This document shows positions 19,871 to 59,700 of a DNA stretch of 64,000 bases, piece after piece. The DNA is from Tubulanus polymorphus. Taxonomy: Eukaryota > Nemertea > Palaeonemertea > Tubulaniformes > Tubulanidae. The notes below the pieces were generated by a model, which saw only the letters and a program-made list of their open reading frames with translations, was not told where the DNA came from and ran no database searches. The stretch is taken from the NCBI RefSeq assembly GCF_964204645.1, contig NC_134030.1:1961855-2025854 (forward strand). Reading direction: 5' to 3'. Each line of letters opens with the position of its first letter. Position 1 is the stretch's first letter. The position numbers and the translations under genes were made by a program.

Positions 19871-19876
19871 AATAAA
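19871..19876 (+). terminator. CNPY polyadenylation signal AATAAA
   Basis: Canonical AATAAA 426 bp after the CNPY stop. The corresponding position in the paralogue's 3' flank (47,965) reads AATAAT. Confidence 0.7.
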
Positions 19877-26345: not shown

Positions 26346-26410
26346 GGTCTTCTGTTGTCGTCACAGGCGTGATTCAGTCACTGATTATCGGCCCCCCCCC
26401 CCCCCCATTT

Positions 26411-27161: not shown

Positions 27162-27609
27162 TCGTCCGATCGGCTGCGTCTTGGAATATTCAGCTGGAAA
27201 GAAATGATATTTTTGAGGCGTACAATCTTTTCGAGCATCTTATAAATTTACATGTAAAAGTTAAATCCGTTCTTGTCGTATACAATTGCAATAATTGTAT
27301 TATTTGATCAGTGATTGTCAATAAACCCCCGATTGATTAGTATTAGTAGCGTTAGTTAATCACTATTTAAGACAGTGATCATTAACGTAGATTTCTCTGA
27401 TACAAGATCAGTTAACGTTGATTTGGTACAAAGACCACAGTGTCTTTAAAAAGACGGATCTGAGAACCTACTGAACCTACCCGACCTCGTCGTTCGAGGA
27501 GTTTGGATTTTTCGTGCAAATAAGGATATACAGCTTTTTGAGGCTGTTATTTCTAGAGGATGTTTGGCAAAAGGACATTTGATAGTTAGGAGCTCTAGCG
27601 AGGCTGGTA

Positions 27610-28385: not shown

Positions 28386-30879
28386 AATGGTTCCTTTTGC
28401 CTCTCATCAACTATCAAGTTAAACAGTCAAAATATTCATGCATGACTTTTATAACTAGTGACTAATGGATGACACCAAAGCCTTCGATGTGACAGAAAAC
28501 TTGATAGAAAACTTTTACTGGAAATCCAGAATTTTCAAACCAATCGACTAAATGTCAGTAAATCATTAGAAAATATAAACTTGTCATAAAATGAGAAGCT
28601 GAATTGAAAGAGATCTTGAAATGACTCTTTTAAGATTGAGATTTCATTAACAAAGATTGAGATTTCAGTGAGAAAATATTTGAAATATTGCAAATAGTTT
28701 CTGCAATTGATAATTCTAGTAACAAAGATTCACTGACTCAATTGATATATCAATATCAAAATACTGATAGAAGTGACACAGAAATTAGCAACAAACATTC
28801 AGAATTTCATATCTGAAGTTTCTCTCGAAGTTCATTATCAGCTTTGAAATGATACAGTGATTTTCCATCAAAAGGAAAAACACAATTTAAAGTTTTTTCC
28901 ATCAAAAAATGATTTTATTCCGTTCTGTCAAAAGGAAAGATACAATTTAAGTCTTTCCATCAAAAATAAAAACATAGTCAAGTTTTTTTCCGTCAAAAGG
29001 AAAAACGCTATCTCAAGTTCTTCCGAGTTTCACAGGAAATTGCAAACAACCAGTATTCAAACAGGTTTCTTTTCAAATCTCATTATTGTCTGGTTTTAAG
29101 AATTTTCAAACTTAAATCAGCACCAAACAAACATTCATAGAAATTGCTTATAAAAATCAAATATAAACAGATGACATCTAGATGTCAATATCATCTTGAG
29201 AAAAATTATTAATCTTCATTTTTGAAAAATTACTACATGTCATTTACTATGTCTGGTTACAACAGTTATAATGATTATGCAAATGAGAGTGGAGAGAGTG
29301 CCACAAATGAATCGGGACTTTCATCTAATACGAGCACGCTGAAAATAGAAACATGTGTTAAATTGAATGAGGCAAACCATTATGTATAAGACATGAATGA
29401 GTTCGCGGTGGTCATTGAAATATGACCGGTTAAAACTGACGTTTAGAAATAAAGATTGGTGAAATATTGAATTGTAAATTTGTACTCGGAGAAGTCCCAA
29501 GACGACACCTCACCACTCATTATTTCTCACTCTAAACCGGTGTCAGTAATTAAACTCTACACAACCTCAAATTAAAACTATACATCAAAATTACTAATTT
29601 TTGGAATAGTGCCACTGAATGTATTTAAGGACTTCAGTCTAATACGAGTACAAACAAACAAACAAACAAATGAACAGAATATGATGAAAATCTGAACACA
29701 GTAAAATTGAATAAAAGCAAACCATTTATGCAAAACAAAGTTACTACATAAATGAGTTCACAAGTGGCCATTAAATTAGACCTGATTGAAAATGATAAAT
29801 TATTGGAATTGTACTCGGAAAAGTCCTGCATTTATTTCCAAAACGGCACTTCAGTTTCTAGTTCCTAATATTCTCATAGACACCGGTATCATTGATAAAC
29901 TTATATTAGGCTAAATTTATATTAGGCTAAATTTATATTAGGCTAAATTTGAAGTAAAATTTCAAAGCGTCGAAGCTTTTACTCGCAATCACTTTCATTT
30001 TCAGTAATTTCTATTTTTGATTGTTTGGTGCAAATTTATCAATCGGAATATTTGAAATGACACCAGACGTTTTGGATAAAACCTGAAGGTTGCGCAATTG
30101 ATTTTGAATCATACTACAGTGATTTTCCATCAAAAGGAAACTCACAATTTAAATCTTTTCCATCAAAAAAATGATTTTATTCTGGTCTGTCAAAAGGATA
30201 GATAAAATTTAAGTCTTTCCATCAAAAATAAAAACATACTTAAGTTTTTTCCGTCAAAAGGAAAAACGTTATCTTCAGTTCTTCCGAGTTTCACAGGAAA
30301 TTGCAAACAACCAGTTTTCAAGCAGGTTTCTTTACAAATATTTTTCAAAGTTCAGATATCAATTACAAAAAAACTGAATGAAGATTCTATATTTGCATTT
30401 GAATCACGTAAACAAAGTGAGGAACTTCAATTAATTTATTTCAACTTTTAAACTTCACTTCTAAAAGCATTTTAATAAAATCGATATTAAAATATATCGA
30501 GATTTCATAAGATGATATTTGAAATATTCACATAAATGTGGCACAAAACATTAACTAGAAATCAAGAACTTTTAAAACTAAATATCAGTAAGACATCTTG
30601 AAATGACTCTTTTTGAAATTGAGATTCCACTAAGAAAACATTAGAAATGATTGCAAATCTTAGTGCAATTGAGATTTCACTACCAAATATTAAGATTCCA
30701 GTAAGAAAACATATCTAATGATCGCAATTCCTTTGGAGATTGCAAATTTAAGCAAAAGAACTTAACACCCTTATATTGACATTTTGCAGAGACGTTTTTT
30801 AAAGGAAATATGATATGGGAACTTTGATAACATGATTAAAACAGAGCTTGCGGAGATGATCCTAATATACCTCAAGGGA

Positions 30880-31810
30880 CAAGCGTGTTCACCACTGAAC
30901 CAATAGAACTTAAGTCTAATTGGCCAGTGGTTAAACAACGCGAGATTTTATCAAAAATAAAAATATCATGAGCTAATGCTGTTAAGAACTAGCAACGATG
31001 ATACACTTTTCACAGAGCTGACAGAGACTATTTGAACTTTGTTAGCAGGATATGGCCAGGTTTTTGTTATAAACTATGACTACTTAAGGTTGTCCAACAT
31101 TGAAAAGTAGAATCTCTTATATTGACGTGTTTTAAAGGAACTATGATATCGAAACATTGATAACATGATTAAACCAGAGCTTGCGGAGATGATCTTACAA
31201 TACATCAATAAGTCAAGGGACAAGATAAGCGTGTTCACCACTGGACCAATAGAATATAAGTCTAATTCGTCAGTGGTTAAACAGCGCGAGATTTTATTAA
31301 ACAAAATATCAACAGCTATATTTATCCTTAAACAGAACTTAACAGAGATGACCTTATTATAAGTTAAGGCACAAGACAAGCGTGCCAACCACTGATTCAA
31401 TAGAACTTAAGTCTAATTGACCAGTGGTTAAACAGCGCGAGATTTTATTAAATGAAATATCAAGAGCTTTTATTTATCCTATATCAAACAGTAACTAGCA
31501 TCAATAATAAACCTTAAACAGTACTTAACAGAGATGATCTTATTTTAAGTAAAGGCAGAAGACGAGCGTGTTCACCACTGGACAAATAGAACTTTAGTCT
31601 AATTGACCAGTGGTTAAACAGCGCGAGATTTTATTAAACAATATATCAACAGCTATATTTATCCTATATTGAGCAGTAAGCATCAATAATAACACCTTAA
31701 ACATTACTTTACAGAGATGATCTTATTTAAAGTAAGGCCACGAGACGAGCGTGTTCACCACTGGACAAATAGAACTTTAGTCTAATTGACCAGTGGTTAA
31801 ACAGGGCGAG
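30880..31810. repeat. palindromic sub-repeats, unit 1 (five copies)
   Basis: Each ~150-190 bp sub-repeat has ACCACTGG and CCAGTGGT arms around CAATAGAACTTAAGTCTAAT, an imperfect ~41-bp palindrome, followed by TAAACAGCGCGAGATTTT. Copies lie near 30,891, 31,237, 31,388, 31,577 and 31,758. Units 2 and 3 hold four (36,688-37,442) and three (42,376-42,952). Confidence 0.75.
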
Positions 31811-33118
31811 ATTTTTCTAAAAATACAAAATATCATGAGCTAATCCTGTTAAGAAGTAGCAACGATGATACACTTGTATCAGAGCTGACAGAGACGATAT
31901 TTATATGAACTTTGTTAGCGGGATTTATCGGGGCATTAGACTAGTGATTATACTCATTGATATAAGTTTTTGTAACAAACTATGACAACTTTTCCAACAT
32001 AGGAAAATAGATATCTCCTATACTGAATCAGTTATTTATTCTATTGCACAGCTTTACAAAGACGATCTTTACTGGGAATTTGATATAAGAATAAAAAATG
32101 GGGCCACGGAGACAATGATTAGTTAGTACTAGTCCGAGTGAACTAGCGTCCACTCGGACTAGTGACTAGATAGCTTATAATAGTAATAGTTATATAAGTA
32201 CGACTGCTAATATTTTAACTAATATACAGTAAAACATAACTTACAGCGCCATCTATTTTCAGACAAGGTAAGCGTGCTAACTAGTAAAACGGCTAAAATA
32301 TACACTTAATAACAGTAATATATCGACTAACATAATTATCCTTATATAAAATAGATACTAAATCTAAAACACAACTTATTTACAAAATTGTATTTACATT
32401 AAATAAAACTAAAGCTAATGATTATTATGTATTATTATGTATTAAATAACTGATTGACTGAGATATAATAATAAAATAGTAATTACATATTTACATTAAT
32501 TACATATTTATATTAATTACATATTTACATTAATTACATATTTATATAACATATATTTACACATTTATTTATATTGAGTAAAGATGAGATATTCTAAGAC
32601 GCTATATTGAGTGAAAAATGAAATTCCAACACAGAGCTAACAGAGACCAAGGTTTGAGGGTATTTTGTTAGCAAGATTTTGGCCGAAGGTTTTTGTTATG
32701 AAGCTAATCTACTAACAAGAGAAAAGTCATTCTAAGATCTTATCCCAAGTTATCTTATCCTAAGTTATCTTATCCTAAGTAACTATTCTAAACTAGTGCG
32801 GTGCAGACACAGAACATCGTTTAACGATTTTGTGTCATTTGGATATTTTTTTTTTTCAGTTAGAGATATTAAGCGTTAAAAATCTTAAGTTTTGAGATGA
32901 GCTTTTAAAAAGCTTTTCAACACCTCCTTTATGTGTATTTCTACACGTTTTTGGTTTTGTGGACTCTCAGCACTCCACTCTCTCTCTTTCTTACCCCCCA
33001 AAATATAGAATGATAAATCAAACTTAGCTTTTTTGTATTGCGAAGTCACAGTTCCTCTTGGATCCACTTCGCATCTGCTGGTTTCTGCTGGCTTGGAATG
33101 ATTGGTTCTCATCTGTTC

Positions 33119-36100
33119 GTCCGATCAGCTGCATCTTGGAAATATTCACCTGGAAGTAAATGATATTTTTGAGGCGTACAATCTTTTCGAGCATCTTATA
33201 AATTTACATGTAAAAGTTAAATCTGTCCTTGTCGTTTACAATTGCAATAATTGTATTATTTGATCAGTGATTGTCAATAAACCCCCGATTGATTAGTATT
33301 AGTAGCGTTAGTTAATCACTATTTAAGACAGTGATCATTAACGTAGATTTCTCTGATACAAGATCAGTTAACGTTGATTTGGCACAAAGACCACAGTGTC
33401 TTTAAAAAGACATTGAGAACCTACTGAACCTACCCGACCTTGTCGTTCGAGGAGTTTGGATTTTTCGTGCAAATAAGGATATACTGCTTTTTGAGGCTGT
33501 TATTTCTAGAGGATGTTTGGCAAAAGGACACATGAGGTTTTTGATAGTTAGGAGCTCTAGTGAGGCTGGTAGCGCCACCTATTGCTCTGTCACTATTGTC
33601 TCTGCGCTCTGAGAGGAATGGATAGTTTTTTAAAGATGGATATGTTTGATTTGCGAGTTCTAGGTGACTGGTAGCGCCACCTATTACTCTTCATCGTCTC
33701 CGCAACTTTACCTGTTGCCCCGGAGAGTATTAGATGGGAGATATTTGGGGTTTGTTAAGAGTTGGGAGCTATAGGAAGGCTGGTAGCGCCACCTATTATT
33801 GCTCAGGCACCATCGTCTCCGCCCACTTACCCGAAACTCTGATCAAAGTTTAATGTATTTTAGGGGAGTTTTTTGAGATCTAAGAGCTATAGGAAGGCTG
33901 GTAGCGCCACCTATTGCTCAAACACCATCATCTCCGCCCACTTACCCGCAGCTCTGATTGTATTTTATAAGGTTTGGGAGCTATAGGAAGGCTGGTAGCG
34001 CCACCTATTATTGCTCAGGCACCATTGTCTCTGCCCACTTACCCGACTCTGATCAAAGTCTAATGTATTTTTAGAGCTATATTTGGGCTGGTAGCGCCAC
34101 CTATTGCTAATGAACCATCATTTCCGCGCACTTACCCAAAAAGCTCTGATTGTATTTCATAAAGTTTTAGTAATTTAGGGGAGTTAGGAGGTAGTGCCAT
34201 CTATTGCTCAGGAATGGTTCCCTCTGCCTCTCGTCAAGTATCAAGTTAAACAGTCAAAATATTCATGCATGACTTTTATAATTAGTGACTCATGGATGAC
34301 ACCAAAGATACAAAACTTGATAGAAAACTTTTACTGGTAATCCCGAATTTTCAAACCAATCGACTAAATGTCAGTAAATCATTAGAAAATATAAACTTGT
34401 CATAAAATGAGAAGCTGAATTGAAAGAGATCTTGAAATGACTCTTTTAAGATTGAGATTTCACTAACAAAGATTGAGATTTCAGTGAGAAAATATTTGAA
34501 ATATTGCAAAGACTTTTGCAGTTGATATTCTATTAACAAAGATTCACTGACTCAATTGATATATCAATATCAAAATACTGATAGAAGTGACACAGAAATT
34601 AGCAACAAACATTCAGAATTTCATATCTGAAGTTTCTCTCGAAGTTCATTATCAGCTTTGAAATGATACAGTGATTTTCCATCAAAAGGAAAAACACAAT
34701 TTAAAGTTTTTCCATCAAAACAAATGATTTTATGCCGTTCTGTCAAAAGGAAAGATACAATTTAAGTCTTTCCATCAAAAATAAAAACATACTTAAGTTT
34801 TTTTCCGTCAAAAGGAAAAGCGCTATCTCAAGTTCTTCCGAGTTTCACAGGAAATTGCCAACAACCAGTATTCAAACAGGTTTCTTTTCAAATCTCATTA
34901 TTGTCTGGTTTTAAGAATTTTCAAACTTAAATCAGCACCAAACAAACATTCATAGAAATTGCTTATAAAATTCAGATAAAAACAGATGACATCAAGATGT
35001 CAATATCATCTTGAGAAAGATTAATTAATCTTCATTTTTGAAATATTACTACATGTAATTTACTATGTCTGGTTACAACAGTTATAATGATTATGCAAAT
35101 GAGAGTGGAGAGAGTACCACAAATGAATCGGGACTTTCATCTAATACGAGCACGCTGAAAATAGAAACATGTGTTAAATTGAATGAGGCAAACCATTATG
35201 TATAAGACATGAATAAGTCTGCGGTGGTCATTGAAATATGACCGGTTAAAACTGACGTTTAGAAATAAAGATTGGTGAAATATTGAATTGTAAATTTGTA
35301 CTCGGAGAAGTCCCAAGACGACACCCTCACCACTCATTATTTCTCACTCAAAACCGGTGTCAGTAATTAATCTCTACACAACCTCAAATTAAAACTATAC
35401 ATCAAAATTACTAATTTTTGGAATAGTGCCACTGAAAGTATTTAAGGACTTCAGTCTAATACGAGTACAAACAAACAAACAAATGAACAGAATATGATGA
35501 AAATCTGAACACAGTAAAATTGAATAAAAGCAAACCATTTATGCAAAACAAAGTTACTACATAAATGAGTTCACAAGTGGTCATTAAATCAGACCTGATT
35601 GAAAATGATAAATTATTGGAATTGTACTCGGAGAAGTCCTGCATTTATTTCCAAAACGGCACTTCAGTTTCTAGTTCCTAATATTCTCATAGACACCGGT
35701 ATCATTGATAAACTTATATTAGGCTAAATTTATATTAGGCTAAATTTGAAGTAAAGTTTCAAAGCGTCAAAGCTTTTACTCGCAATCACTTTTATTTTCA
35801 GTAATTTCTATTTTTGATTGTTTGGTGCAAATTTATCAATCGGAATATTTGAAATGACACCAGACGTTTTGGATAAAACCTGAAGGTTGCGCAATTGATT
35901 TTGAATCATACTACAGTGATTTTCCATCAAAAGGAAAAAACACAATTAAAATTTTTTCCATCAAAAAAATGATTTTATTCCATTCTGTCAAAAGGATGGG
36001 TACAATTTAAGTCTTTCCATCAACAATAAAAACATACTTAAGTTTTTTCCGTCAAAAGGAAAAACGTTATCTTAAGTTCTTCAGAGTTTCACAGGAAATT

Positions 36101-38749
36101 GCAAACAACCAGTTTTCAAGCAGGTTTCTTTACAAATATTTTTCAAAGTTCAGATATCAATTACAAAAAAACTGAATGAAGATTCTATATTTGCATTTGA
36201 ATCACATGAACAAAGTGAGGAACTTCAATTGATTTAATTCAACTTTTAAACTTCACTTCTAAAAGTATTTTAATAAAATCGATATTAAAATATATCGAGA
36301 TTTCATAAGATGATATTTGAAATATTGACATAAATGTGGCACAAAACATTGACTAGAAATCAAGAACTTTTAAAACTAAATGTCAGTAAGACATCTTGAA
36401 ATGACTCTTTTTTAAATTGAGATTCCACTAAGAAAACATTAGAAATGATTGCAAATCTTAGTGCAATTGAGATTTCACTACCAAATATTAAGATTCCAGT
36501 AAGAAAATATATCTAATGATCGCAATTCCTTTGGAGATTGCAAATTTAAGCAAAAGAACTTAACACCCTTATATTGACATTTTGCAGAGACGTTTTTTAA
36601 AGGAAATATGATATAGGAACTTTGATAACATGATTAAAACAGAGCTTGCGGAGATGATCCTAATATACCTCAAGGGACAAGCGTGTTCACCACTGAACCA
36701 ATAGAACTTAAGTCTAATTGGTCAGTGGTTAAACAACGCTTGATTTTCTTTAAAATACAAAATATCATGAGCTAATCCTGTACAGAACTAGCAACGATGA
36801 TACACTTTTCACAGAGCTGACAGAGACTATTTGAACTTTGTTAGCAGGATATGGCCACGTTTTTGTTATAAACTATGACTACTTAAGGTTGTCCAACATT
36901 GAAAAGTAGAATCTCTTATATTGACGTGTTTTAAAGGAACTATGATATCGAAACATTGATAACATGATTAAACCAGAGCTTGCGGAGATGATCTTACTAT
37001 ACATCAATAAGTCAAGGGACAAGACAAGCGTGTTCACCACTGGACCAATAGAATATAAGTCTAATTGGTCAGTGGTTAAACAGCGCGAGATTTTATGAAA
37101 CAAAATATCAACAGCTATATTTATCCTATATTGAGCAGTAAACATCAATAATACACCTTAAACATTACTTAACAGAGATAATCTTATTTTAAGTAAGGCC
37201 ACGAGACGAGCGTGTTCACCACTTGACAAATAGAACTTAAGTCTAATTGACCAGTGGTTAAACAGCGCGAGATTTTATTAAACAAAATATCAACAGCTAT
37301 GTTTTTCCTATATTGAGCAGTAAACATCAATAATACACCTTAAACATTACTTAACAGAGATGATCTTATTTAAAGTAAGGCCACGAGACGAGCGTGTTCA
37401 CCACTGGACAAATAGAACTTTAGTCTAATTGACCAGTGGTTAAACAGCGCGAGATTTTTCTAAAGATACAAAATATCATGAGCTAATCCTGTATAGAACT
37501 AGCAACGATGATACACTTGTATCAGAGCTGACAGAGACGATATTTATATGAACTTTGTTAGCGGGATTTATCGGGGCATTAGACTAGTGATTATACTCAT
37601 TGATATAAGTTTTTGTAACAAACTATGACAACTTTTCCAACATAGGAAAATAGATATCTCCTATAATGAATCAGTTATTTATTCTATTGTAGAGCTTTAC
37701 AAAGACGATCTTTACTGGGAATTTGATATAAGAATAAAAAATGGGGCCACGGAGACAATGATTAGTTAGTACTAGTCCGAGTGAACTAGCGTCCACTGGG
37801 ACTAGTGACTAGATAGCTTATAATAGTAATAGTTATATAAGTACGACTGCTGATATTTCAACTAATATACAGTAAAACACAACTTACAGCGCCATCTATT
37901 TTCAGACGAGGTAAGCGTGCTAACTAGTAAAACGGCTAAAATATACACTTAATAACAGTAATATATCGACTAACATTTAATTATCCTTATATAAAATAGA
38001 TACTAAATCTAAAACACAACTTATTTACAAAATTGTATTTACATTAAATAAAACTAAAGCTAATGATTATTAACTGTATTAAATAACTGATTGACTGAGA
38101 TATAATAATAAAATAGTAATTACGTATTTACATTAATTACATATTTATATTAATTACATATTTACATTAATTACATATGAATATAACATATATTTACACA
38201 TTTATTTATATTGAGTAAAGATGAGATATTCTAAGACGCTATATTGAGTGAAAAATGAAATTCCAACACAGAGCTAACAGAGACCAAGGTTTGAGGGTAT
38301 TTTGTTAGCAAGATTTTGGCCGAAGGTTTTTGTTATGAAGCTAATCTACTAACAAGAGAAAAGTCATTCTAAGATCTTATCCCAAGTTATCTTAAGTTAT
38401 CTTATCCTAAGTAACTATTCTAAACTAGTGCGGTGCAGACACAGAACATCGTTTAACGATTTTGTGTCATTTGGATATTTTTTTTTTTCAGTTAGAGATA
38501 TTAAGCGTTAAAAATCTTAAGTTTTGAGATGAGCTTTTAAAAAGCTTTTCAACACCTCCTTTATGTGTATTTCTACACGTTTTTGGTTTTGTGGACTCTC
38601 AGCACTCCACTCTCTCTCTTTCTTACCCCCCAAAATATAGAATGATAAATCAAACTTAGCTTTTTTGTATTGCGAAGTCACAGTTCCTCTTGGATCCACT
38701 TCGCATCTGCTGGATTCTGCTGGCTTGGAATGATTGGTTCTCATCTGTT
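33119..38749. repeat. large tandem repeat, unit 2 (5.63 kb)
   Basis: Second copy, same order as unit 1. It lacks one ~130-bp GCGCCACCT sub-repeat (present at 27,835-27,965 in unit 1 and in unit 3) and one palindromic sub-repeat. It has small differences of its own, such as CACATGAGGTTT near 33,530 and CCTTGTCGTTCGAGG. Otherwise identity to unit 1 looks well above 90 per cent by eye. Confidence 0.93.
33572..34202 (-). promoter_or_regulatory. array of CTCF-core-like sites, unit 2
   Basis: Exact GCGCCACCT at 33,572, 33,674, 33,786, 33,904, 33,998 and 34,094, and a two-mismatch copy at 34,194. Same orientation and spacing as unit 1. Confidence 0.45.
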
Positions 38750-41700
38750 CGTCCGATCGGCTGCGTCTTGAAATATTCAGCTGAAAGTAAATGATATTTT
38801 TGAGGCGTACAATCTTTTCGAACATCTTATAAATTTACATGTAAAAGTTAAATCCGTCCTTGTCGTATACAATTGCAATAATTGTATTATTTGATCAGTG
38901 ATTGTCAATAAACCCCCAATTGATTAGTATTAGTAGCGTTAGTTAATCACTATTTAAGACAGTGATCATTAACGTAGATTTCTCTGATACAAGATCAGTT
39001 AACGTTGATTTGGTACAAAGACCACAGTGTCTTTAAAAAGACGGATCTGAGAACCTACTGAACCTACCCGACCTCGTCGTTCGAGGAGTTTGGATTTTTC
39101 GTGCAAATAAGGATATACAGCTTTTTGAGGCTGTTATTTCTAGAGGATGTTTGGCAAAAGGACATTTGATAGTTAGGAGCTCTAGCGAGGCTGGTAGCGC
39201 CACCTATTGCTCTGTCACTATTGTCTCTGCGCTCTGAGAGGAATGGATAGTTTTTTAAAGATGGATATGTTTGATTTGCGAGTTCTAGGTGACTGGTAGC
39301 GCCACCTATTACTCTTCATCGTCTCCACAACTTTACCTGTTGCCCCGGAGAGTATTAGATGGGAGATATTTGGGGTTTGTTAAGAGTTGGGAGCTGTAGG
39401 AAGGCTGGTAGCGCCACCTATTATTGCTCAGGCACCATCCTCTTTGCAACTTACCAGAAGCTCTGATTTACATGATTGAATTCACATGATTAAGTGATTT
39501 CAAGGGAATTTTTTAGAGTTGGGAGCTATAGGAAGGCTGGTAGCGCCACCTATTATTGCTCAGGCACTATCGTCTCTGCCCACTTACCCGAAACTCTGAT
39601 CAAAGTTTAGTGTATTTTTAGGGGAGTTTTTTTAGATCTAAGAGCTATAGGAAGGCTGGTAGCGCCACCTATTGCTCAAACACCATCATCTCCGCCCACT
39701 TACTCGCAGCTCTGATTGTATTTTATAAGGTTTAGGAGCTATAGGAAGGCTGGTAGCGCCACCTATTATTGCTCAGGCACCAATGTCTCTGCCCACTTAC
39801 CCGACTCTGATCAAAGATTAATGTATTTTTAGAGCTATATTTGGGCTGGTAGCGCCACCTATTGCTAATAAACCATCATCTCCGCGCACTTACCCAAAAA
39901 GCTCTGATTGTATTTCATAAAGTTTTAGTAATTTAGGGGAGTTAGGGGGTAGTGCCACCTATTGCTCAGGAATGGTTCCTTTTGCCTCTCATCAAGTATC
40001 AAGTTAAACAGTCAAAATATTCATGCATGACTTTTATAACTAGTGACTAATGGATCACACCAAAGCCTTCGATGTGACACAAAACTTGATAGAAAACTTT
40101 TACTGGAAATCCAGAATTTTCAACTTGTCATAAAATGAGAAGCTGAATTGAAAGAGATCTTGAAATGACTCTTTTAAGATTGAGATTTCATTAACAAAGA
40201 TTGAGATTTCAGTGAGAAAATATTTGAAATATTGCAAATAGTTTCTGCAATTGATAATTCTAGTAACAAAGATTCACTGACTCAATTGATATATCAATAT
40301 CAAAATACTGATAGAAGTGACACAGAAATTAGCAACAAACATTTAGAATTTCATATCTGAAGTTTCTCTCAAAGTTCATTATCAGCTTTGAAATGATACA
40401 GTGATTTTCCATCAAAAGGAAAAACACAATTTAAAGTTTTTCCATCAAAAAATGATTTTATGCCGTTCAGTCAAAAGGAAAGATACAATTTAAGTCTTTC
40501 CATCAAAAATAAAAACATACTTAAGTTTTTCTCCGTCAAAAGGAAAAACGTTATCTCAAGTCCTTCCGAGTTTCACAGGAAATTGCAAACAACCAGTATT
40601 CAAACAGGTTTCTTTTCAAATCTCATTATTGTCTGGTTTTAAGAATTTTCAAACTTAAAGCAGCACCAAACAAACATTCATAGAAATTGCTTATAAAATT
40701 CAAATATAAACAGATGACATCTAGATGTCAATATCATCTTGAGAAAAATTAATTAATCTTCATTTTTGAAAAATTACTACATGTCATTTACTATTGCTGA
40801 TTACAACAGTTATAATGATTATGCGAATGAGAGTGGAGAGAGTGCCACAAATGAATCAGGACTTTCATCTAATACGAGCACGCTGAAAATAGAAACATGT
40901 GTTAAATTGAATGAGGCAAACCATTATGTATAAGACATGAATGAGTTCGCAGTGGTCATTGAAATATGACCGGTTAAAACTGACGTTTAGAAATAAAGAT
41001 TGGTGAAATATTGAATTGCAAATTTGTACTCGGAGAAGTCCCAAGACGACACCTCACCACTCATTATTTCTCGCTCTAAACCGGTGTCAGTAATTAAACT
41101 CTACACAACCTCAAATTAAAACTATACATCAAAATTACTAATTTTTGGAATAGTGCCACTGATTGTATTTAAGGACTTCAGTCTAATACGAGTACAAACA
41201 AACAAACAAATGAACAGAATATGATGAAAATCTGAACACAGGAAAATTGAATAAAAGCAAACCATTTATGCAAAACAAAGTTACTACATAAATGAGTTCA
41301 CAAGTGGTCATTAAATCAGACCTGATTGAAAATGATAAATTATTGGAATTGTACTCGGAGAAGTCCTGCATTTATTTCCAAAACGGCACTTCAGTTTCTA
41401 GTTCCTAATCTTTATAGACACCGGTATCATTGATAAACTTATATTAGGCTAAATTTATATTAGACTAAATTGAAGTAAAGTTTCAAAGCGTCAAAGCTTT
41501 TACTCGCAATCACTTTTATTTCTCGTAATTTCTATTTTTGATTGTTTAGTGCAAATTTATCAATCGGAATATTTGAAATGACACCAGACGTTTTGGATAA
41601 AACCTGAAGGTTGCGCAATTGATTTTGAATCATACTACAGTGATTTTCCATCAAAAGGAAAAAACACAATTTAAATCTTTTCCATCAAAAAAATGATTTT

Positions 41701-43876
41701 ATTCCATTCTGTCAAAAGGATAGATACAATTTAAGTCTTTCCATCAAAAATAAAAACATACTTAAGTTTTTTTTCCATCAAAAGGAAAAATGTTATCTTA
41801 GGTTCTTCCGGGTTTCACAGGAAATTGTATGAACAAAGTGAGAAACTTCAATTGATTCAATTCAACTTTTAAACTTCACTTCTAAAAGCATTTTAATAAA
41901 ATCGATATCAAAATTTTGAGATTTCAGTAAGATGATATTTGATTAATTGCAAATTGAGATTTCAGTAACAAAGATGAAACGATCTTTTTTTTTCAGAAAA
42001 TTTCAATGAAATATTGACATAAATGTGACACAAAACATTGACTAGAAATCAAGTACTTTTAAAACTAAATGTCAGTAAGACATCTTGAAATGACTCTTTT
42101 TGAAATTGAGATTCCACTAAGAAAACAATAGAAATGATTGCAAATCTTAGTGCAACTGAGATTTCACTACCAAATATTAAGATTCCAGTAAGAAAACATA
42201 TCTAATGATCGCAATTCCTTTGGAGATTGCAATTTTAAGTAAAAGGTCTTAACTCCCTAATATTGACATTTTTTCAGAGACGTTTTTAAAGGAAATATTA
42301 TATAGGAACTTTGATAACATGATTAAAACAGAGCTTGCGGAGATGATCCTAATATACCTCAAGGGACAAGCGTGCTAACCACTGAACCAATAGAACTTAA
42401 GTCTAATTGACCAGTGGTTAAACAGCGCGAGATTTTATCAAAAATACAAAATATCATGAGCTAATGCTGTTAAGAACTAGCAACGATGATACACTTTTCA
42501 CAGAGCTGACAGAGACTATTTGAACTTTGTTAGCAGGATATGGCCAGGTTTTTGTTATAAACTATGACAACTTAAGGTTGTCCAACATTGAAAAGTAGAA
42601 TCTCTTATATTGACGTGTTTTAAAGGAACTATGATATCGAAACATTGATAACATGATTAAACCAGAGCTTGCGGAGATGATCTTACTATACATCAATAAG
42701 TCAAGGGACAAGATAAGCGTGTTCACCACTGGACCTATAGAATATAAGTCTAATTGGTCAGTGGTTAAACAGCGGGAGATTTTATTAAACAAAATATCAA
42801 CAGCTATATTTATCCTATATTGAGCAGTAAGCATCAATAATACACCTTAAACATTACTTAACAGAGATAATCTTATTTTAAGTAAGGCCACGAGACGAGC
42901 GTGTTCACCACTGGACAAATAGAACTTAAGTCTAATTGACCAGTGGTTAAACAGCGCGAGATTTTTCTAAAAATACAAAATATCATGAGCTAATCCTGTA
43001 TAGAACTAGCAACGATGATACACCTGTATCAGAGCTGACAGAGACGATATTTACATGAACTTTGTTAGCGGGATTTATCGGGGCATTAGACTAGTGATTA
43101 TACTCATTGATATAAGTTTTTGTAACAAACTATGACAACTTTTCCAACATAGGAAAATAGATATCTCCTATACTGAATCAGTTATTTATTCTATTGCAGA
43201 GCTTTACAAAGACGATCTTTACTGGGAATTTGATATAAGAATAAAAAATGGGGCCACGGAGACGATGATTAGTTAGTACTAGTCCGAGTGAACTAGCGTC
43301 CACTGGGACTAGTGACTAGATAGCTTATAATAGTAATAGTTATATAAGTACGACTGCTGATATTTTAAATAATATACAGTAAAACACAACTTACAGCGCC
43401 ATCTATTTTCAGACGAGGTAAGCGTGCTAACTAGTAAAACGGCTAAAATATACGAGTATAATATATGAGTGAAAAATGAAATTCCAACACAGAGCTAACA
43501 GAGACCAAGGTTTGAGGGTATTTTGTTAGCAAGATTTTGGCCGAAGGTTTTTGTTATGAAGCTAATCTACTAGCAAGAGTTATCCCAAGTTATCTTATCC
43601 TAAGTTATCTTATCCTAAGTAACTATTCTAAACTAGTGCGGTGCAGACACAGAACATCGTTTAACGATTTTGTGTCATTTGTATATTTTTTTTTTCAGTT
43701 AGAGATATTAAGCGTTAAAAATCTTAAGTTTTGAGATGAGCTTTTAAAAAGCTTTTCAACACCTCCTTTATGCGTATTTCTACACGTTTTTGGTCTTGTG
43801 GACTCTCGGCACTCCACTCTCTCTCTCTTGCCCCCCAAATAGAGAAGGATAATTCAAACTTAGCTTTTTTGTATTG
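38750..43876. repeat. large tandem repeat, unit 3 (5.13 kb, truncated)
   Basis: Third copy. It shares some variants with unit 1 only (GACGGATCTGAGAACC; the extra GCGCCACCT sub-repeat) and others with unit 2 only (CACTGGGACTAGT; shorter CAAACAAACAAATG). Internal deletions occur near 40,118, 41,827 and 43,452. Similarity stops at GTATTG, 43,876, so the last ~78 bp of the unit is missing. Confidence 0.93.
39197..39960 (-). promoter_or_regulatory. array of CTCF-core-like sites, unit 3
   Basis: Exact GCGCCACCT at 39,197, 39,299, 39,411, 39,543, 39,662, 39,756 and 39,852, and a one-mismatch copy at 39,952. The copy at 28,267 that is mutated in unit 1 is intact here (39,852). Confidence 0.45.
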
Positions 43877-46163
43877 AGATCATCATTCACCGGTAGGTAG
43901 TTACAGTAGTTCATCATCTACTAGTTCAAGTAGCATTTCATTTTCTAGGATTCTAACTTTCTGCGACTGCAAATATAAGAAAATCATGATAAGTTTCTCG
44001 GAGTGAAAATGATTAACGTTAAAATATGAAGCACAGTGAAAAATATCGTTCAAACGCTACAAAGAAAAACATGGATTATTACTAAATGAAAACAGTAATA
44101 TGAAAAATGGCAATTTATGAAGATGATTTTATGAAAAAATTTATTAAAATGTACTCTACAACTCAATGGGATGTTACTGCATGGGTAAAACAATTAACTA
44201 AATTTTGAAATCAAGCTTTCTCACCATAATATAGCGATTTGAAGCGGATGTCCCCATCTAAAATTCAGCCGGCGGCATGGCTTGGAATAGGATTTCATTT
44301 ACCATTTCAGCATTCAGACCGCTCGGAGGTTTAGACAGGAGTGCGGCGATTCTGAGTGAATGGCGCGAAATGCTTTCAAACCTATTGACGCGTTACCGGA
44401 TTAGATCGGGAGACTATTGAGGGACCGAGTTCGGCATTCCTGCAGTGGCCAATCACAGAGAGCATCGTCCTTGAATAGATTCACCGCGAGGTCGAGTTTG
44501 ACTTCACCGCCGCCCGTTCCGCTGGAATAAACACCGGGTCACACACGAGATACCCTTTCATATTCATATTCTTAGCGTAACATTTCGATAGAAGGAATAA
44601 ATCTTAGATATCTCAATTAGAGCTTTTTATAGCAGTTACATTTCGTGGATACGAATTCAAATTTCTCATCGTACGTGTCTCTCGGAGGAGTCCTAATTTA
44701 GTACCGGTATCATCGTTGTTACACTTACATTTATCGTATCTGTAATTCGAATTATCCCTTAAAACAGTATGATAAAACATAGGCTATATATCACCATCGG
44801 TTTTATGGTGACAAGATAAAACCCACTATTTACAAATTAAAAGAAATCTAAAATCGAGAATTTATTTATTGAAACAATCTAAAATATAAGAACACGACGT
44901 TTCGATCTCTAGAGATCCCTAGAGATCTAAAATTCTCGATTTTAGATTTCTTTTGATTTGTAAATAGTGGGTTTTTATCTTATCATCTGTTCACCACGTT
45001 TGAGTGTAGTTATCGTACATTTTGGTGACAATTTTTATACTCGAATCTTCAAACAAACGAATATCAATTTGATATGCGAAATGTGATTTCTTACACTGAC
45101 AATCGTGTGAGCCCGTATCCTATAGCTTAAGATATAAAATTCGATTCAAATTTCGATGCCGCTGTTAAACTTCTTATATTTGCGGTGAAACGCTCCGAAT
45201 CCGCCTGAAACGTTCATCAACTCCTCCTTACAATGTGAACCGTTGTCAAACTTTATTTCTCATTTTATTAAAAAGTCATCTCGAATCTCCTCAACACACG
45301 TAAATAGGACCATGACGTGGAAGTCCAGTAATAACACGAACAGTCAGTAATCAAACCCCCTGCTCCCGTCAGATGTGGCACCAAATCCAAACAAAATCTC
45401 AAAAACAAATAAATAACAGGGTCATTCCATATTCAAAGTCAAAGATGAATAAGAAATTATAAAACTAACTTTATCTATGATAAACCGCCTCATTTTCAAG
45501 TTGTGAAAATGAAAATGAACATTTGTATTTTTTTCAACTGCCACATCATCTTTTGACATCACGCAAACACAAAATCACTGTGGACAATCTGGTGTTCTGA
45601 TGAATATATTTGTCGTGTTTTCGTTGATCAGTAAATAGCGAAAACTTACAAAAAATGGCGCGGCACCTGCGTGGCAATAGATACAACATTCGGGTATCAA
45701 AAACGGCCTCCAAAATAAGGCAATTTGTTTCTATAATTCCCTCGATACACTTGACTCGTAATGAATTCAACGTTTAAAGAAAAAAAATTATTTTCTAATA
45801 ACATCCCTCCGTTATTATCTCAAGTCCATAAAATCCGTAATCCATGATAAAAACGGCCTTAGCCATCAATCATGGATATTTTAAGAAAAACATTATTTCT
45901 AATAAGATTCTCGCCGTTAATGTCTCAAGTCCATAAAATCCTTAATCCAACTTATGTAATAGAAATTGCCTTTAGCCATCAATTATGAACACGTAGACGG
46001 GACATTACGTGGTTTACGCACGTGCCACAAAGCACCGACCTGTTGTGGAAACTAAAGTTCGCATGTTACAATTCATGTTAACGTTTGAAAAGACACTACG
46101 CCGTTTTTTAGAGTCTCCACGACTACAGACATTCCGGAGAGTATCAACTATTCACGATTTATC
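43877..46163. other. intergenic stretch: CCAAT-containing GC-richer patch and tandem duplication
   Basis: No gene found. 44,260-44,560 is richer in GC and CpG than its surroundings and has GGCCAATCACAGAG at 44,449, so it could be an old promoter or first-exon region, but I cannot assign a gene. 45,775-45,990 is a tandem duplication of ~104 bp (CTCAAGTCCATAAAATCC at 45,819 and 45,923; GCCATCAAT repeated). CACGTG (46,019) and ACGTGG (46,007) lie 140-155 bp upstream of the canopy paralogue. Confidence 0.5.
44815..44979. mobile_element. foldback element with ~48-bp inverted arms
   Basis: The left arm (44,815-44,862: GATAAAACCCACTATTTAC through AAAATCGAGAATT) is an almost perfect reverse complement of the right arm (44,930-44,979: AATTCTCGATTTTAG through AGTGGGTTTTTATC). 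The 67-bp loop has AACACGACGTTTCGATCTC and a small GATCTCTAGAGATC palindrome. It could be a MITE or the end of a retroelement; it has no coding capacity. Confidence 0.75.
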
Positions 46164-47430
46164 ATGAAACTCAACGTGGTAATTATATCTTAACTAATTA
46201 CTGTTATCTGTTAAACTGTTGATATTTTGTCGAATCAAATTCACTGTCACTGGCTGTCCTTTCACTGTCACACTGCTGTCTAACGTTACTAGAACTGGCT
46301 GTCCTTTCATTGGCTCTGTCCCAGTGTCTACTGTCTCACTACTGGGCCCTGACAAATGTTGAATTTTCAGGTCATCGATGCAGGAGCGATGCCTGTTTTT
46401 ATGTTAGTTTTGTTGATGACATTTTCATCCGCTGCGAAACTGAGTAAATTTTGCGGAGGTAATTGAAAGTAACCCAACACATAGTCCCATACCTTCCTCC
46501 AAAACCTAGTCTTATTACCTGACGATGTTTGGGTTTGACATTTACTATTTACAGTACAAATACCACTGGAGGGATTTCTTAACATTCAGACCTGTTTTCA
46601 TAAATTTAACAACAATGTTCAGAAAGGTCTTTATGTTAACGTAAAACAGATACAGTGCTCAAACATTACATGTTCTCAATTTGTAATTTTTCTTTGTCCG
46701 GACTACAGTTTTTTAAGCTGACTTGAGGCAGATACCATTAGAGGTTTTGTCGCTTTTGTTTATCTGAATTTTGCCAGCAAAGTTTCCTCTTGTTCTGGTA
46801 CGCGGACATTTTGGGAGCAAGAAATCGCTGTTGAAACGGTAGTTTTCATGTAGCAAGTTGTACAATAATAGTATTTGTAAAAATAATATATTTTTTTTAT
46901 ATTGGCACGGCTGCTTTTCACCGAGTCCTGGCAGTGGTTGTCTCCACAGTTATATCCGTCGCTCTACGATCCTAGTGTAACCAACTGTGGTACATCATAC
47001 ACTAAGGTTCTTGGTGAAGGCTGCTTAACCCGAGGAATGATTTCTTCTGGATCCCAGCCTCCCGATTATCCTACCCCCTGCAATCACATACAGTTCTGTC
47101 AAAATTCAAATGATGATCGTTTAAATGACTGATTGCTTGTCAACTCTTATAATTTCAGGTTCAGCAGAGACATGTGAATCACAGTCGAAAGAAGTGATCG
47201 AACAAGCGCCGAAAATTGAAAAAGAAAAAGAGAGAGTGAAACAGGAAGAGGAAAGAAAAATACGAGAGGCTGAGGAAGAGAAGAAGAAAGAAGATGAAGA
47301 AACTGCGAAGGAGGAAGATGGTGGTGATGATGAGAAACAAAGTGAAAATGAAGATGATAAATCTACTGGTGATAAAAATGATGCTGATAAGGATGATAGC
47401 TTTAAATTTCTAGACGATTTCATCAGATAA
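46164..47430 (+). CDS. canopy-derived gene lacking the saposin core (exons 1, 2 and 6 of CNPY only)
   Basis: Partial duplicate of the CNPY gene 27 kb away. Exons: 46164-46178 (identical to CNPY exon 1), 46371-46458 (signal peptide, VIDAGAMPVFMLVLL) and 47159-47430 (charged coiled-coil tail). CNPY exons 3-5, encoding most of the cysteine-rich core, are absent; the 700-bp intron holds unrelated sequence. Exon 2 ends in phase 1 and exon 6 starts in the same phase, so joining them gives an uninterrupted 124-residue protein: signal peptide, KLSKFCGGSAETCES, Glu/Lys coiled coil and acidic tail. The KDEL is replaced by SFKFLDDFIR, so ER retention should be lost and secretion is likely. The splice sites at all three exons are canonical. 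The 3' flank is also homologous, but AATAAA there became AATAAT; the next AATAAA is at 48,220. It is either a new gene or a pseudogene that has not yet decayed. Confidence 0.65.
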
Positions 47431-48070
47431 ATGAAGCGTTTAAAATGGATTCGGTTTATGGCGAAATCCTTCCTTTCCATATTATGTTTATTGATTATCA
47501 GTGTACTTTACTCTACCATTCCGACTGCTTTCATTTATGATAATGAGCTAAGTATTTTTATCTAATCGCTTTGGATACAAATCCACGGTTGTCTGGGGCT
47601 GATATTTTAATTGATGGATTTGTATCATAGATGACCGTGCGGATAAGTAACAAGCGCCGGGGAGACGTGCTGATTCTTTTCTACCAACTCTCCGTGTAAA
47701 TCACGCAAATCGCGCTGCGCGAATGATCAAATCGGATTTGAGTAATCATCCAAATGCATTACTCTGAATCGATTTTTGACAAATCAAATACCTCTAGATG
47801 ACTCAAACGCCTCTAGATTGATTTGGTTTTTTCAGAACTGAATTTTTAGTTGATCATTCGAAGTTGTTGTCGATCAATTGAATGCTTTCAGTATCTGGTT
47901 TGTCCGCAGTATATATAACTCACTGCTCTGCTTACGATGTATAAACGAATGAATTTTCGAACGAATAATTTTATTCAGAATCAGATTCTTCAGTTTTTGG
48001 TCTTGTGATGAAAGACGGCGACGATGTATTTCGTAGGTCATTTCGGCTTTCAAATTTGTAAGAACTGTTA

Positions 48071-50028: not shown

Positions 50029-53000
50029 TCACGAATGTTTCGGTCTAACAGTCGCGTATTCAGCGTAACCGGGGGCGACGAATGAGAGCACGAATTTCAT
50101 TAATAAATCGCAGACATTCGGAAATATCAATTCAGTCGAAACCGGCATCAAAAACCACTTCACGAAAGCCAAAACGTAGAACAAATTTATGGATGTCTGA
50201 GGAAGTTTTTGTCGATCGAAAATCTGATAAAGTGAAACGGCGACAGCGATGTAGAAGATTCTACTCGGTAAAGATGGCGGTCGATCTTTCAGAGAACGTC
50301 TGGTTAACCTGAGGGCAATCCCAAGTCCTACAAAACAGAGCAACTGATACATGTATATTCTTTGAAAGATTGCGTTTAAAACATTCCTATACTCCCAAAC
50401 TATGTGTTAATGGCCCATTATTGATTCAGTTACAAACTCTCTACCGGTCGCTTCTATCAGGTTTACAGATTGCAAACTCTCTACCGGCCCTTTCTATAGG
50501 TTTACAGATTACAAACTCTTTACCGGTCGCTTCTATCAGGTTTACAGATTACAAACTCTCTACCGGCCGCTTCTATCAGGTTTACAGATTACAAACTCTC
50601 TACCGGCCGCTTCTATCAGGTTTACAGATTACAAACTCTCTACCGGCCGCTTCTATCAGGTTTACAGATTACAAACTCTCTACCGGCCGCTTCTATCAGG
50701 TTTACAGATTACAAACTCTCTACCGGCCGCTTCTATCAGGTTTACAGATTACAAACTCTCCACCAGTTGCTTCTATCAGGTTTACGGATTACAAACTCTC
50801 TACCGGGGCCGCTTCTATCAGGTTTACAGATTACAAACTCTCTACCGGTCGCTTCTATCAGGTTTACAGATTACATACTCTCTACCGGCCGCTTCTATCA
50901 GGTTTACAGATTACTAACTCTCTATCTTTCCTTCTATCTTCTAGATTTACAGATTATACTACTCCAAAATAGGTAGAGTGTATTCTGGTCGAAACAAACA
51001 TGTCAGAAGAGAATTTCACAATTGATAAGAGACCAATCAGAAACCTGCCTAAATTCTTACCTAATAAAGCAGCAGAATCGCGAACTATTGCATGAAATAG
51101 AGTCGTATCGAGATGAATCCATTCGGGTTTTTGACACCATTTTAAAGCACTGGAAACACTCCACATCGGATTCATATTCAATACGTTCTCAATCAGCGAG
51201 TAAACAGCGAATCCACTTAATAACAATCCTGCACTCACTAACATATAGACACAACTACGCACGTGTAATAGTGGAACATGACGAATCAATTCAGCTACGA
51301 TCAAACCTAGAAATATAAAACAGAGATAAATATCAATCATTACCGGTGCTGAAGTTGTTGGTTAAGTTTTCAAATTGTTAGTACTCGTGAGAATGACTTT
51401 AAATCCAAACAACAAATTGGTAAATTGACTTCAAAATACAACTTGGGACTAAAGAATAGAGATGACATCAGTAATGTGACAACTCTGATGACAACTTAAC
51501 AGAGTTTGATAATGCAAGATCTATAGGCCTACATGGGAAACTCGTTACAACAAACTTTAGGGGACCAGAAAATCTGTTTGTTATTACTGATGATACAGTG
51601 ACACAATGAACTTCAGACCAGAAAATCTGTTTGTTTGTTACCGGTATAAACAAAGGAAAATACAGTGTGAAATTATATAAATTGTCCTACCCGGTATTTG
51701 AATGGGATGAAATTCTAGGTTTGTAATAACTTATAAATCATTGTATCCAAAGATCATACATATACCGCAGTTTACGAGATGCAAATAAAAACGTTTACCT
51801 ATGAACGTGCCCAGGACGACTTGATGAGGGAAATGAGTAGCAATAAACAACCGCGAGATCATTACGCAAAACATGAATATGAAATATCCAAACCAACATA
51901 AAACATTCATCACAAACCTGAAATTAGATCAAACAGCACGAATCTTCAAATGATGACAGTAACACCAAAATCAGTTCATTTTCAATTTTTAACACTGAAA
52001 CCAGTTTGACAAATAGATTTTAATCAATTATTCTTATTCAGAGCACAATTTTAGCAGAGACCAGGCGTGGATCGCTGCGGCCCGGTTTCACGAAAAAGTT
52101 TAAATGTCAAATCAATTTAAGGATATCAAATTCTAATCCTCCTAAGGAAATGGGTTGAATTCAACTCCTAAATTTTAAAGCGATTTATTAACTAAAACCT
52201 GAGTCCTGGTTTGTTATACAGAACATGTTGCTATAAATGAGTATCTCGTACCTGTGATGTTTCGAAGCAAAGGTGCTGTGGCAAGTGAGGTGTCGTATAA
52301 GTAGATATAAAACAGACGCTGTAACCATCGCGTGACCAGACGGACTTCCCGGACCGGTTTCACACGTTAAATAAAACTGATCTAATCTCGGACGAGTTTG
52401 ATTGTTGTATAAATGAGTTTCATGAATCCACCAGTACGGTCGGTGACCGTGCAGAACCCTGAAATATCAAAAACTATTCATTATCATCCATTTAACTCTC
52501 TTTCAGCGTGTCCACCCCATAGTGCAGTGTAAAATTGGGTGATGCTAGTACACTGCATCGCGGTGTATTGATGTAATTAGTTATTAGTTATTAATCTATA
52601 TTGTATAAGATATATTCAGTGTTGACGCACTATAGCGGTATTCCCATTATGATCAACAAATTCGGACGAAATTTCTAAAAAGTTTTTAAATCTCCAACTC
52701 TTTTGGGTGTTAAGAGCTCCACGGCTGATCTACATCTGGATATTTATTCAGTTAAATTGAGCTTTAACCCTTTTAGTGCTGACCAATTAACACCCAGAGC
52801 TGGAGATGATTACCGGTAGATAATTTTTTAAAATTCAACCCCAGCGTGTTATATAGGTCTGCCAAGCATCCGGCTAGCTGCTACAGTGCATCTACACACT
52901 GGTTTAGTGTATTGTAACAAACTAATATTTCACCAAATTTGACAGGTGCTGCCATCTTCTGATAAAGATATAAACTACTGGTATTTACATATACTGTGAT

Positions 53001-56700: not shown

Positions 56701-59700
56701 CATCATAGTTCGGAAGATTATAACTTTTCAACCGCACTTCGGCAATCAACGTTTCAGAAATTCTTCTCTATGGTAAACTGAAACTTCCAATTATATCTCA
56801 GATTCAAAATGAAAAAATTGAGAGTTAATTGGTTGGATTCTTAGCAGATGGAATCAGGAAAAACAACGTGCGTGACAGGGAAAAATTAAGTCAAATAAAA
56901 GTGGTCGCCATGTAGATCTGTACTTTGATTCCTATTCCGAGATCAAATGCCCTGTTTCATTCCGGGTAGGGTTTGTAAGGGAAACTTAAAAAATGATAAT
57001 ATGGACAATCGTCTCATTTCAAAGTTAAAAATCTACATATAACTCTAATTCTTAATATTTCATTACAATTCTGAAAATTTCAATTTTTATTGCAGTTTTT
57101 TTATTTGCCGATGGCTATAGTCGGAGTTCCACCGTCATTGTATTTGGTGCACGCACATTTTAACTTGCTGTTCCAGTTTTGGGTTCACACAGAGGTACGC
57201 CTTAAACACAATCGAAAAAATTATTCGCAATAGAATTAGATACCGGTACATCTGCTGAAAAAAATCAAACCACTAAAATTTATTCTATTTCTATCTCTTC
57301 AGATGTTAACTGGTGTATTTTGATGAATTCAATGATTTGATTATTAATTGAATTACAGATTGTAGGTAAATTAGGACCACTGGAGTATATACTGAATACA
57401 CCGAGTCTTCATCGCGTTCATCACGGTAGAAACAGATATTGTATCGATAAAAACTATGGTGGAACTTTGATTATCTGGGATTTATTATTCGGTAAGATCT
57501 GAATTTGTAATTGATCATCAGTTACACAGTTGACTGTGGATCCAGTTCCACAGTTTACTGTGGATCCAGTTCCACAGTTGACTGGATCCAGTTCCGCAGT
57601 TGACTGTGGATCCAGTTCCACAGTTGACTGTGGATCCAGTTCTACAGTTGACTGTGGATTCAGTTACACAGTTTACTGTGGATCCAGTTCCACAGTTGAC
57701 TGGATCCAGTTCCGCAGTTGACTGTGGATCCAGTTCCACAGTTGACTGTGGATCCTGTTCCGCAGTTGACTGTGGATCCAGTTCCACAGTTGACTGTGAA
57801 TCTAGATACACAGTTGACTGGATCCAGTTCCACAGTTGACTGTGGATCCAGTTCCACGGTTGACTGTGGATCCAGTTCCACAGTTGTGAGGGTCTGATGT
57901 GACTGTGGATCCAGTTCAACAGTTGTGTTGGTCTGATGTTACCGTGGATCCAGTTCCACAGTTGTGTGGGTCTGATGTGACTGGATCCAGTTCCACAGTC
58001 GTGTGGATTTAATTTGACTGTGGATCCAGTTCCACAGTTGTGTGGGTCTGATGTGATTGGATCCAGTTCCACAGTAGTTTGTAAATTATCTGTAAGTTAT
58101 AGATGAAATGCACTGTTTTATTTTCTAAGGTACATACGCCAGTGAAACTGATGAAGTTGTTTATGGTTTAGTTCATCTAGTCAATACCTTTGACCCGATC
58201 CACATACAAGTAAGTAATTAGAGCATCTTGAATTTTCTGATAGCTGATGGCATAGACCTGTGTAGAATATTAGATATAACAGCTTTATTCTTTAACCCTT
58301 TCAGTGCTGGCTAATTAATACCCTATAGCGCTGAAGATAATTTGAAAATTCTGAAAAATTCCACCTTAGTGTGTTGAATAATGGGAATAGCACTATAGTG
58401 CGTCTACACCATGGCGCGGTATATCGATAGTTATTAATATTTCACTATGTTTGACAGGTGCTGCCATCATTCAAGAGAGATAATTAGTAATGACTAATTA
58501 AATCAATACACTGCAGTGCGGTGTACTAGCAAAATCCATTACTGACTCGTACACCGCAATGCGGTGTAGATTCACTGAAAGGGTTAACCAAACTCAGACA
58601 TCCAATTCACATGACAATCATACAATTGATCCTTGTTCAGATCATTGCACATCACATTACACATAAAGTTATACTCAAACAAAAATCAAGACATTACCAC
58701 ACTAGATACCTAGTTCTGAATTAGTAGTGGCGTTAGAAGTGCAGCGCCAAGAGCCGGGGCAATAATTTACTGAATGACGTTTCTTTTTTCTTCAAATACC
58801 ACGTTTTTGAAGAAACTAAGTAAATTCGCCACGCCAATATTTAGAACCAGTCCGTAATCGGCATTTGGCCGCGGCAATCAAAAATTGCTTCCAACGCGCC
58901 TGATTAGCAGTTCTTAACCAGAGACAATTACAGGTTGAAACTGCCAGATTGAGTTTAGCAGAGACGGATTTTGTCATATTACATTATCAACGAATAAACT
59001 GATAAGTAATTGACTTATGATGTCTCGATAGCTATGTCTAGATAGATGTCTCCTTGTAGTTGTTATGAAAGGAATTTTATTTACGTTAGGAAAGCATGTT
59101 TCCGCTGATACTCAGCTCCCTGTGTATGCAACTTGTCTGTATTTTGTATTTTTCAGTTGTGTCATTTTAAATGGGTTTGGAGTCAGTTTTGGGAAAAGGA
59201 CGGTTTGAAGAATAAATTGTCGGTGATTTTTAAAGGCCCCAGCTGGAAACCCGGCGAATCGCGTCTCGGTTATAGATTGGATTTTCCTGAAGTAAGTGGA
59301 TCATTCGAATCTATCGTTTGTAGTCGATTAGAATTAATGAAACAACGTGAATTTCTTTCTGAGAACCACGGCATGGAATTATATTTAGGAATTGTTTGAA
59401 AAGTATGCATATTATTTTATTTCTCTCCAGGTATCTGCCCCTCAGCCACGGTACGACCCACAGTTGCCGACGTGGTGTGGTGTCTACATTCTATTGCATA
59501 CTGGTTTATTGGTATTTGGATATTTATGGTTATTGAATATTTCTGAGGTGCGTAACTGTGCTAGTCGATGTGCGCTATGTCATCGGTGCTACAAAAATAA
59601 CAATTACAATTGTGAATTTTGGCGAAAGCAAATATATTTCATAACTCTTATTCTATTTTTGATAAATTTTGATTTTGAGAGGATGTGCACTACGCTATCG

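Follow-up and report, generated by a model that had tools for sequence, protein, structure and literature searches.

The 64-kb window, by which the whole stretch of DNA analysed here is meant (C6:1,961,855-2,025,854), contains a complete CNPY2-like gene and, about 27 kb downstream of it on the same contig, a diverged second version that spans 46,141-48,003 and has lost the exons of the Canopy core domain while its remaining coding locus (46,164-47,430) still reads in frame. That this copy has a coding past and is not a long-dead pseudogene is supported by its pattern of alignment gaps and by simulations of neutral drift. By a slight preponderance, the locus is best taken as a recently relaxed, decaying partial duplicate. 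The earlier note had proposed a new secreted protein rather than a dead copy; the gap and simulation tests uphold that the copy is not long dead, but a present function of the core-less product was not borne out.

We take the complete gene to be CNPY2-like, a label that draws partly on the human protein sequence. Its PF11938 core covers residues 35-177 (E=2.2e-28), and the direction from parent to derived copy rests on this family domain being complete in the parent. The cysteines of the parent are C35, C38, C94, C143, C170 and C177, plus C113. A PDB search with the parent protein gave four matches at E≤1, none of which is a Canopy-named protein; the best (0.073) is a designed helical protein.

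The similarity of copy and parent is far beyond chance. By blastn, with gaps counted, the piece comprising exon 1 and intron 1 is 79.5% identical (E 1e-25), exon 2 reaches 88% (46,356-46,470 against 17,198-17,318, E 2e-40) and exon 6 reaches 78% (47,159-47,396 against 19,182-19,438, E 1e-55). The homology around exon 1 extends from 23 nt 5' of the ATG into intron 1, and the splice acceptor of exon 6 is homologous to that of the parent. As previously described, exons 1, 2 and 6 are kept with canonical borders, their join is open over 124 residues, and exon 2 has a two-codon deletion, seen as a 6-nt gap in the alignment to the parent. The borders are GT/AG and the frame ends in TAA. With one source gene and part of its open reading frame missing, the copy is a partial gene duplicate. 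In the genome searched (267.8 Mb in 77 contigs), relatives of exons 2 and 6 were found at the parent and copy loci only (four matches among nine candidates). A search for PF11938, which overlooked exons 4 and 5 of the parent and is therefore not exhaustive, gave four matches among eight candidates, three in a single gene on contig C4 and one in the parent. The coordinates of parent and copy are collected in the table.

Table. Features of the CNPY2-like parent gene and its core-less copy (positions are those of the window)
Feature	Position	Strand	Remarks
Parent CNPY2-like gene	17,056-19,445	+	six exons, 268 aa, C-terminus KDEL
Parent exons	17,056-17,070; 17,213-17,306; 17,425-17,543; 17,727-17,924; 18,599-18,695; 19,162-19,445	+	
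Copy exon 1 (MKLNV)	46,164-46,178	+	GT donor; identical to parent exon 1
Copy exon 2	46,371-46,458	+	rest of signal peptide; phase 1 end after FCG; 6-nt deletion relative to parent
Single fused intron, 700 nt	46,459-47,158	+	replaces parent introns 2-5 and exons 3-5
Dispersed repeat of about 105 nt in fused intron	46,914-47,021	.	edge of surviving intron 5 homology
Copy exon 6	47,159-47,430	+	charged Glu/Lys segment, acidic tail, SFKFLDDFIR, stop TAA
New C-terminal codons	47,397-47,430	+	from former 3' UTR after 19-nt net deletion
Diverged 3' UTR homology, two aligned blocks	47,431-48,003	+	alignment to parent

The loss of exons 3-5 from the copy, as the earlier note had it, is confirmed by both searches made for them. 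Single-exon nhmmer searches of 20,001-50,000 were without match for all three exons, and a loose tblastn search for the core over the whole window returned only the three exons of the parent plus matches at E≥2. The frame is indeed intact after this loss, but the cause originally given, a matching phase 1 at the junction of exons 2 and 6, has to be corrected: exons 3-5 together measure 414 nt, or 138 codons, and the frame survives their removal because this is a whole number of codons. The joint loss of the three exons therefore leaves the frame intact whatever selection does. Within the fused intron that stands in their place, the first 42 nt or so (46,459-46,500) resemble parent intron 2 weakly, a resemblance matched by 7 of 200 shuffles, while the last 157 nt (47,002-47,158) resemble the terminal part of parent intron 5 to a degree that 0 of 200 shuffles attained (the upstream part of this resemblance, taken alone, was equalled by 2 of 300). 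The dispersed repeat at the edge of the intron 5 homology may have taken part in the exon loss. At least 45 other matches to it exist in the genome, each lying within positions 456-563 of the query and 83-92% identical, with 40 of 500 candidates scored; among the same scored candidates, the part of the intron from 46,500 to 46,914 had no other match. The repeat has consistent ends and its matches lie on contigs C1-C9 and C11. A related tandem run of units of about 111 nt is found on C8 near 15.26 Mb.

Introns 1 and 5 are retained in part in the copy, and intron 2 weakly. A processed, RNA-derived copy was rejected, as parts of the parental introns are still there. Retroposition of an unspliced transcript was also considered, the homology stopping near the likely ends of the parental transcript (23 nt before the ATG and 30 nt past the AATAAA), and was rejected for want of a poly(A) tract or a target-site duplication: the longest word common to the flanks of the copy is 6 nt, a length reached by 452 of 1000 shuffles, and the longest A run is 3. 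The copy is a duplicate of the CNPY2-like gene made at the DNA level, with introns. Homology to the 5' flank of the parent was detected for 23 nt and no further (42 of 200 shuffles equal the best match beyond that point), so either the duplication did not include the parental promoter or this promoter has since been lost. On the 3' side, the far 3' UTR still shows 71.5% identity to the parent (blastn, gaps counted); the AATAAA of the parent at 19,871 is AATAAT in the copy at 47,964, and the next AATAAA follows at 48,220. That the second locus is an assembly artefact or an allelic duplicate is extremely improbable. A tandem triplication of 5.7-kb units between the two CNPY loci is the kind of place where assemblies err, but divergence between the two copies is about 9-21% in alignable stretches, with many gaps, and no homology was detected between their outer flanks.

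Exon 6 of the copy differs from that of the parent at both of its ends. The parent ends in NKDEL and a stop; in the copy, a net deletion of 19 nt removes the last codons together with the stop and shifts the frame. The ending SFKFLDDFIR was thus correctly described earlier, but it did not arise by substitution of KDEL, its cause being the net 19-nt deletion across the old stop. Being terminal, such a frame shift is tolerated. At the start of exon 6, the best DNA alignment under all three gap costs places a gap of -20 after the acceptor followed by +2, and under this alignment the frame was broken for a time. An in-frame alternative with gaps of -6 and -12 needs two more substitutions and scores slightly lower by hand count; it would be preferable if the frame was under selection, and it leaves one frame-changing gap, at the extreme C-terminus. 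The codon for C177, the last conserved cysteine, is gone from the copy under either alignment. The available text of PMC13093825 describes Cys28 and Cys171 as paired in human CNPY2, and by analogy C177 of the parent may pair with its first cysteine.

The history of the copy was approached through the lengths of its gaps. At gap costs of 5, 7 and 9, the frame is preserved by 8 of 11, 6 of 9 and 5 of 8 gaps in the coding part, compared with 3 of 25, 3 of 25 and 2 of 22 non-coding gaps (Fisher 0.0007, 0.004 and 0.007). The claim that coding differences are largely in frame is sustained by these coding gaps; the pair at the start of exon 6 aligns best as -20/+2. For one neutral branch, 10.3, 10.3 or 9.2 frame-changing gaps, depending on gap cost, would be expected in 375 nt, a count lowered by the choice of the neutral yardstick regions for their alignability and possibly raised by low complexity in the UTR. 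Three were seen on both branches together (-20, +2 and -19), the parent's own branch entering every pairwise count and the -2 end gap of exon 6 being treated as the edge of the 19-nt event, which was counted as one frame-changing gap. With 10 expected, the Poisson probability of seeing no more than three is 0.010; with 8 expected, it is 0.042.

Neutral drift was also simulated. The non-coding parts contain 25 gaps against 65 substitutions, or 0.38 indels per substitution, and their uncorrected distance over the two branches combined is 0.16-0.18. With the indel rate set low, at 0.08 per substitution, and branch distances taken up to 0.18, drift left the frame open in 0.015-0.033 of runs at a distance of 0.14; at 0.10, this low rate left it open in 3.4-4.2%. 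Drift at the observed non-coding indel rate and gap lengths left it open in 0.001-0.007 at 0.10-0.14. There are 63 single-base changes that would stop the 124-codon frame. Neutral drift ever since the duplication is very unlikely on these figures. Drift confined to a short recent phase, on the other hand, is compatible with an open frame: simulated at the observed rate, distances of 0.01, 0.02 and 0.03 leave about 0.36, 0.15 and 0.07 of runs open. Since these odds fall so quickly, any relaxed phase must have been short. A comparison of copy and parent over 112 codons of a hand-made codon alignment with few sites gave dN=0.125, dS=0.273 and a dN/dS of 0.46, with bootstrap values spread over 0.24-0.93, 42% of them reaching 0.5 or more; a ratio of 0.46 would be the expectation for one constrained plus one relaxed copy.

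These results also bear on a role of the locus as RNA. A transcribed partial duplicate that acts not as a protein but, for example, on the mRNA of the parent is quite improbable. Exon 2 and exon 6 contain long stretches nearly identical to those of the parent, through which pairing with its RNA would be conceivable, and transcribed pseudogenes and partial duplicates with proposed regulatory roles are reviewed in the available part of PMC3449122; the frame-keeping gaps, however, indicate that through most of its history the copy was constrained at the protein level, and PMC3449122 itself cites a paper that disputes one of its own examples (reference 128, Mkrn1-p1).

If the copy is transcribed and spliced as drawn, its product would be a signal-peptide-led, highly charged chain with no saposin-like core and no ER retention. 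The signal peptide described earlier is backed by hydropathy, the one property on which it was judged: the hydrophobic 11-mer AMPVFMLVLLM is kept, with a mean hydropathy of 2.59 against 3.20 in the parent. A KDEL-type retention signal is absent from the copy, and with a signal peptide and no ER retention signal the product would be secreted. The predicted mature part, with cleavage assumed after residue 27, has about 97 residues, 21 of them Lys or Arg and 35 Asp or Glu. The acidic tail is present as the earlier note had stated, and so is the charged Glu/Lys segment, but its description as a coiled coil is doubtful, as the best 28-residue stretch, with 62.5% hydrophobic a/d positions, contains a proline. 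"Charged helix" would be the safer label for this segment and, by inspection, the chain is likely to form a charged helix plus a disordered acidic tail. Pfam returned 20 families for the product at E≤1, none passing the cut-off and PF11938 not among them; the best match, to PF22251 (19.7 bits against a cut-off of 32.3), is taken for low complexity. The Canopy pattern consists of six conserved cysteines forming three disulfides, according to the accessible portion of PMC13093825. The copy retains only the first of the six family cysteines, plus one other Cys.

The history that slightly outweighs the others would be as follows. The CNPY2-like gene was duplicated at the DNA level and, as the tests support, the copy kept its frame through most of the period that followed. 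Exons 3-5 would have been lost late, in roughly the final fifth of the divergence. The copy would now be under relaxed selection or none, its frame being still open mainly since the three lost exons amount to whole codons and little time has elapsed; no selected function of its product would be expected. By arithmetic, the three frame-changing events are compatible with neutrality during the final 10-30% or so of the branch, and the dN/dS of 0.46, the altered AATAAA and the failure to detect more distant 5' flank homology fit decay as well. The open frame throughout, the canonical splice sites and the retained hydrophobic core of the signal peptide count against it, as does the finding that a relaxed phase of 0.03 leaves only about 7% of runs open. 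Furthermore, at least two changes that should have come after or together with the core loss, those of the C177 codon and of KDEL, left an open frame, the bootstrap of dN/dS goes as low as 0.24, and the codon-wise alignment of exon 6 leaves a single frame-changing gap.

A new functional secreted protein, in which the core-less product would be transcribed, exported and selected and would act outside the cell as a charged peptide, helical or disordered, is a real possibility if the lesser one. It would account for a frame that is open despite the 63 possible stop changes, where drift at the observed indel rate closes frames fast, for coding gaps that are mostly multiples of three when non-coding gaps mostly are not, for the intact signal core and for the preservation of the frame through changes that should postdate the core loss. 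Most of these points are, however, also expected if exons 3-5 were lost late, and the gap and simulation tests do not separate such late-exon-loss decay from a new functional protein. In addition, the dN/dS is not clearly below 0.5, the best DNA alignment of exon 6 has a frame-breaking pair, no Pfam family passes its cut-off, the inherited poly(A) signal is altered and promoter homology was undetected. The odds between decay and a working protein are close, with decay favoured; they rest on these tests and on the prior judgement that most copies without their defining domain are dead ends. It is rather unlikely that an ER-resident Canopy protein became a secreted, charged, core-less peptide by phase-neutral loss of the core, acquired its new C-terminus from the old 3' UTR and was kept by selection; if so, what was left at the two ends of a protein, a signal peptide and a linker-like tail, would have become a gene in its own right.

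With the Canopy family (PF11938, DUF3456) the copy shares exon 1, the signal peptide and the charged tail of exon 6; it differs from the family in having no PF11938 core, five of the six cysteines missing and no KDEL-type signal. Human CNPY2 isoform 2, as presented in the available part of PMC5723690, has a predicted signal peptide and no HDEL, is reported to be expressed and is proposed to be secreted, and is thus likewise a shortened CNPY2 product without a retention signal. Isoform 2, however, is a splice form that keeps the first 69 residues of isoform 1 (PMC5723690), whereas here a separate gene copy has no core and keeps the tail. The kind of event is ordinary, as many partial gene duplicates are already known: according to the accessible portion of PMC3449122, 21% of 290 young pairs in C. 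elegans and 76% of the copy-number duplications of D. melanogaster are partial. The copy resembles them as a shortened paralogue with an altered exon-intron structure; it differs in that what it lacks is internal and phase-neutral, and in that what is left reads as an open frame. In the literature searched, by titles and abstract openings, no core-less Canopy gene was named, and one may exist in print. Should the product be made and be under selection, it would be a new secreted protein by subtraction, in which the family-defining domain is removed and the ends remain. If the copy is decaying, which is somewhat more likely, exon phase would make a dead-end duplicate look gene-like, a caution for gene prediction.

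Several other features were observed in the course of the searches. The C4 gene with PF11938 matches, presumably CNPY3/4-like, has two tandem versions of an 85-nt exon on the minus strand (L005:2512-2428 and L005:1909-1825), which are identical at 56 of 85 bases, have AG/GT borders and are of a length that is not a multiple of three; they are candidate mutually exclusive exons. Between the CNPY copies, at 27,100-44,000, a unit of about 5.7 kb is repeated three times in tandem; most of the listed blocks are 93-100% alike, with some ungapped blocks as low as 61%. Relatives of this unit lie on contigs C1, C2, C3, C5 and C8, often in tandem sets with a spacing of about 4.8-5.8 kb, and the one open reading frame tested from it had no Pfam match at E≤0.01. 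Rfam gave no match at gathering score within the 64-kb window. Tandem arrays of 38-nt and 63-nt units run from 23,137 to beyond 24,535 and over 26,290-27,282, the 63-nt array being open for 188 codons on the minus strand, and the repetitive stretches at 50,313-50,976 and 57,518-58,096 are open in more than one frame. Other genes in the window include a TTC21-like gene, an M24 peptidase gene and exons at 50,029-52,466 on the minus strand, which we take to belong to a glucose-6-phosphatase-like gene and in which one of the three open reading frames tested has a weak PAP2 match (E=0.00026, below the Pfam cut-off).
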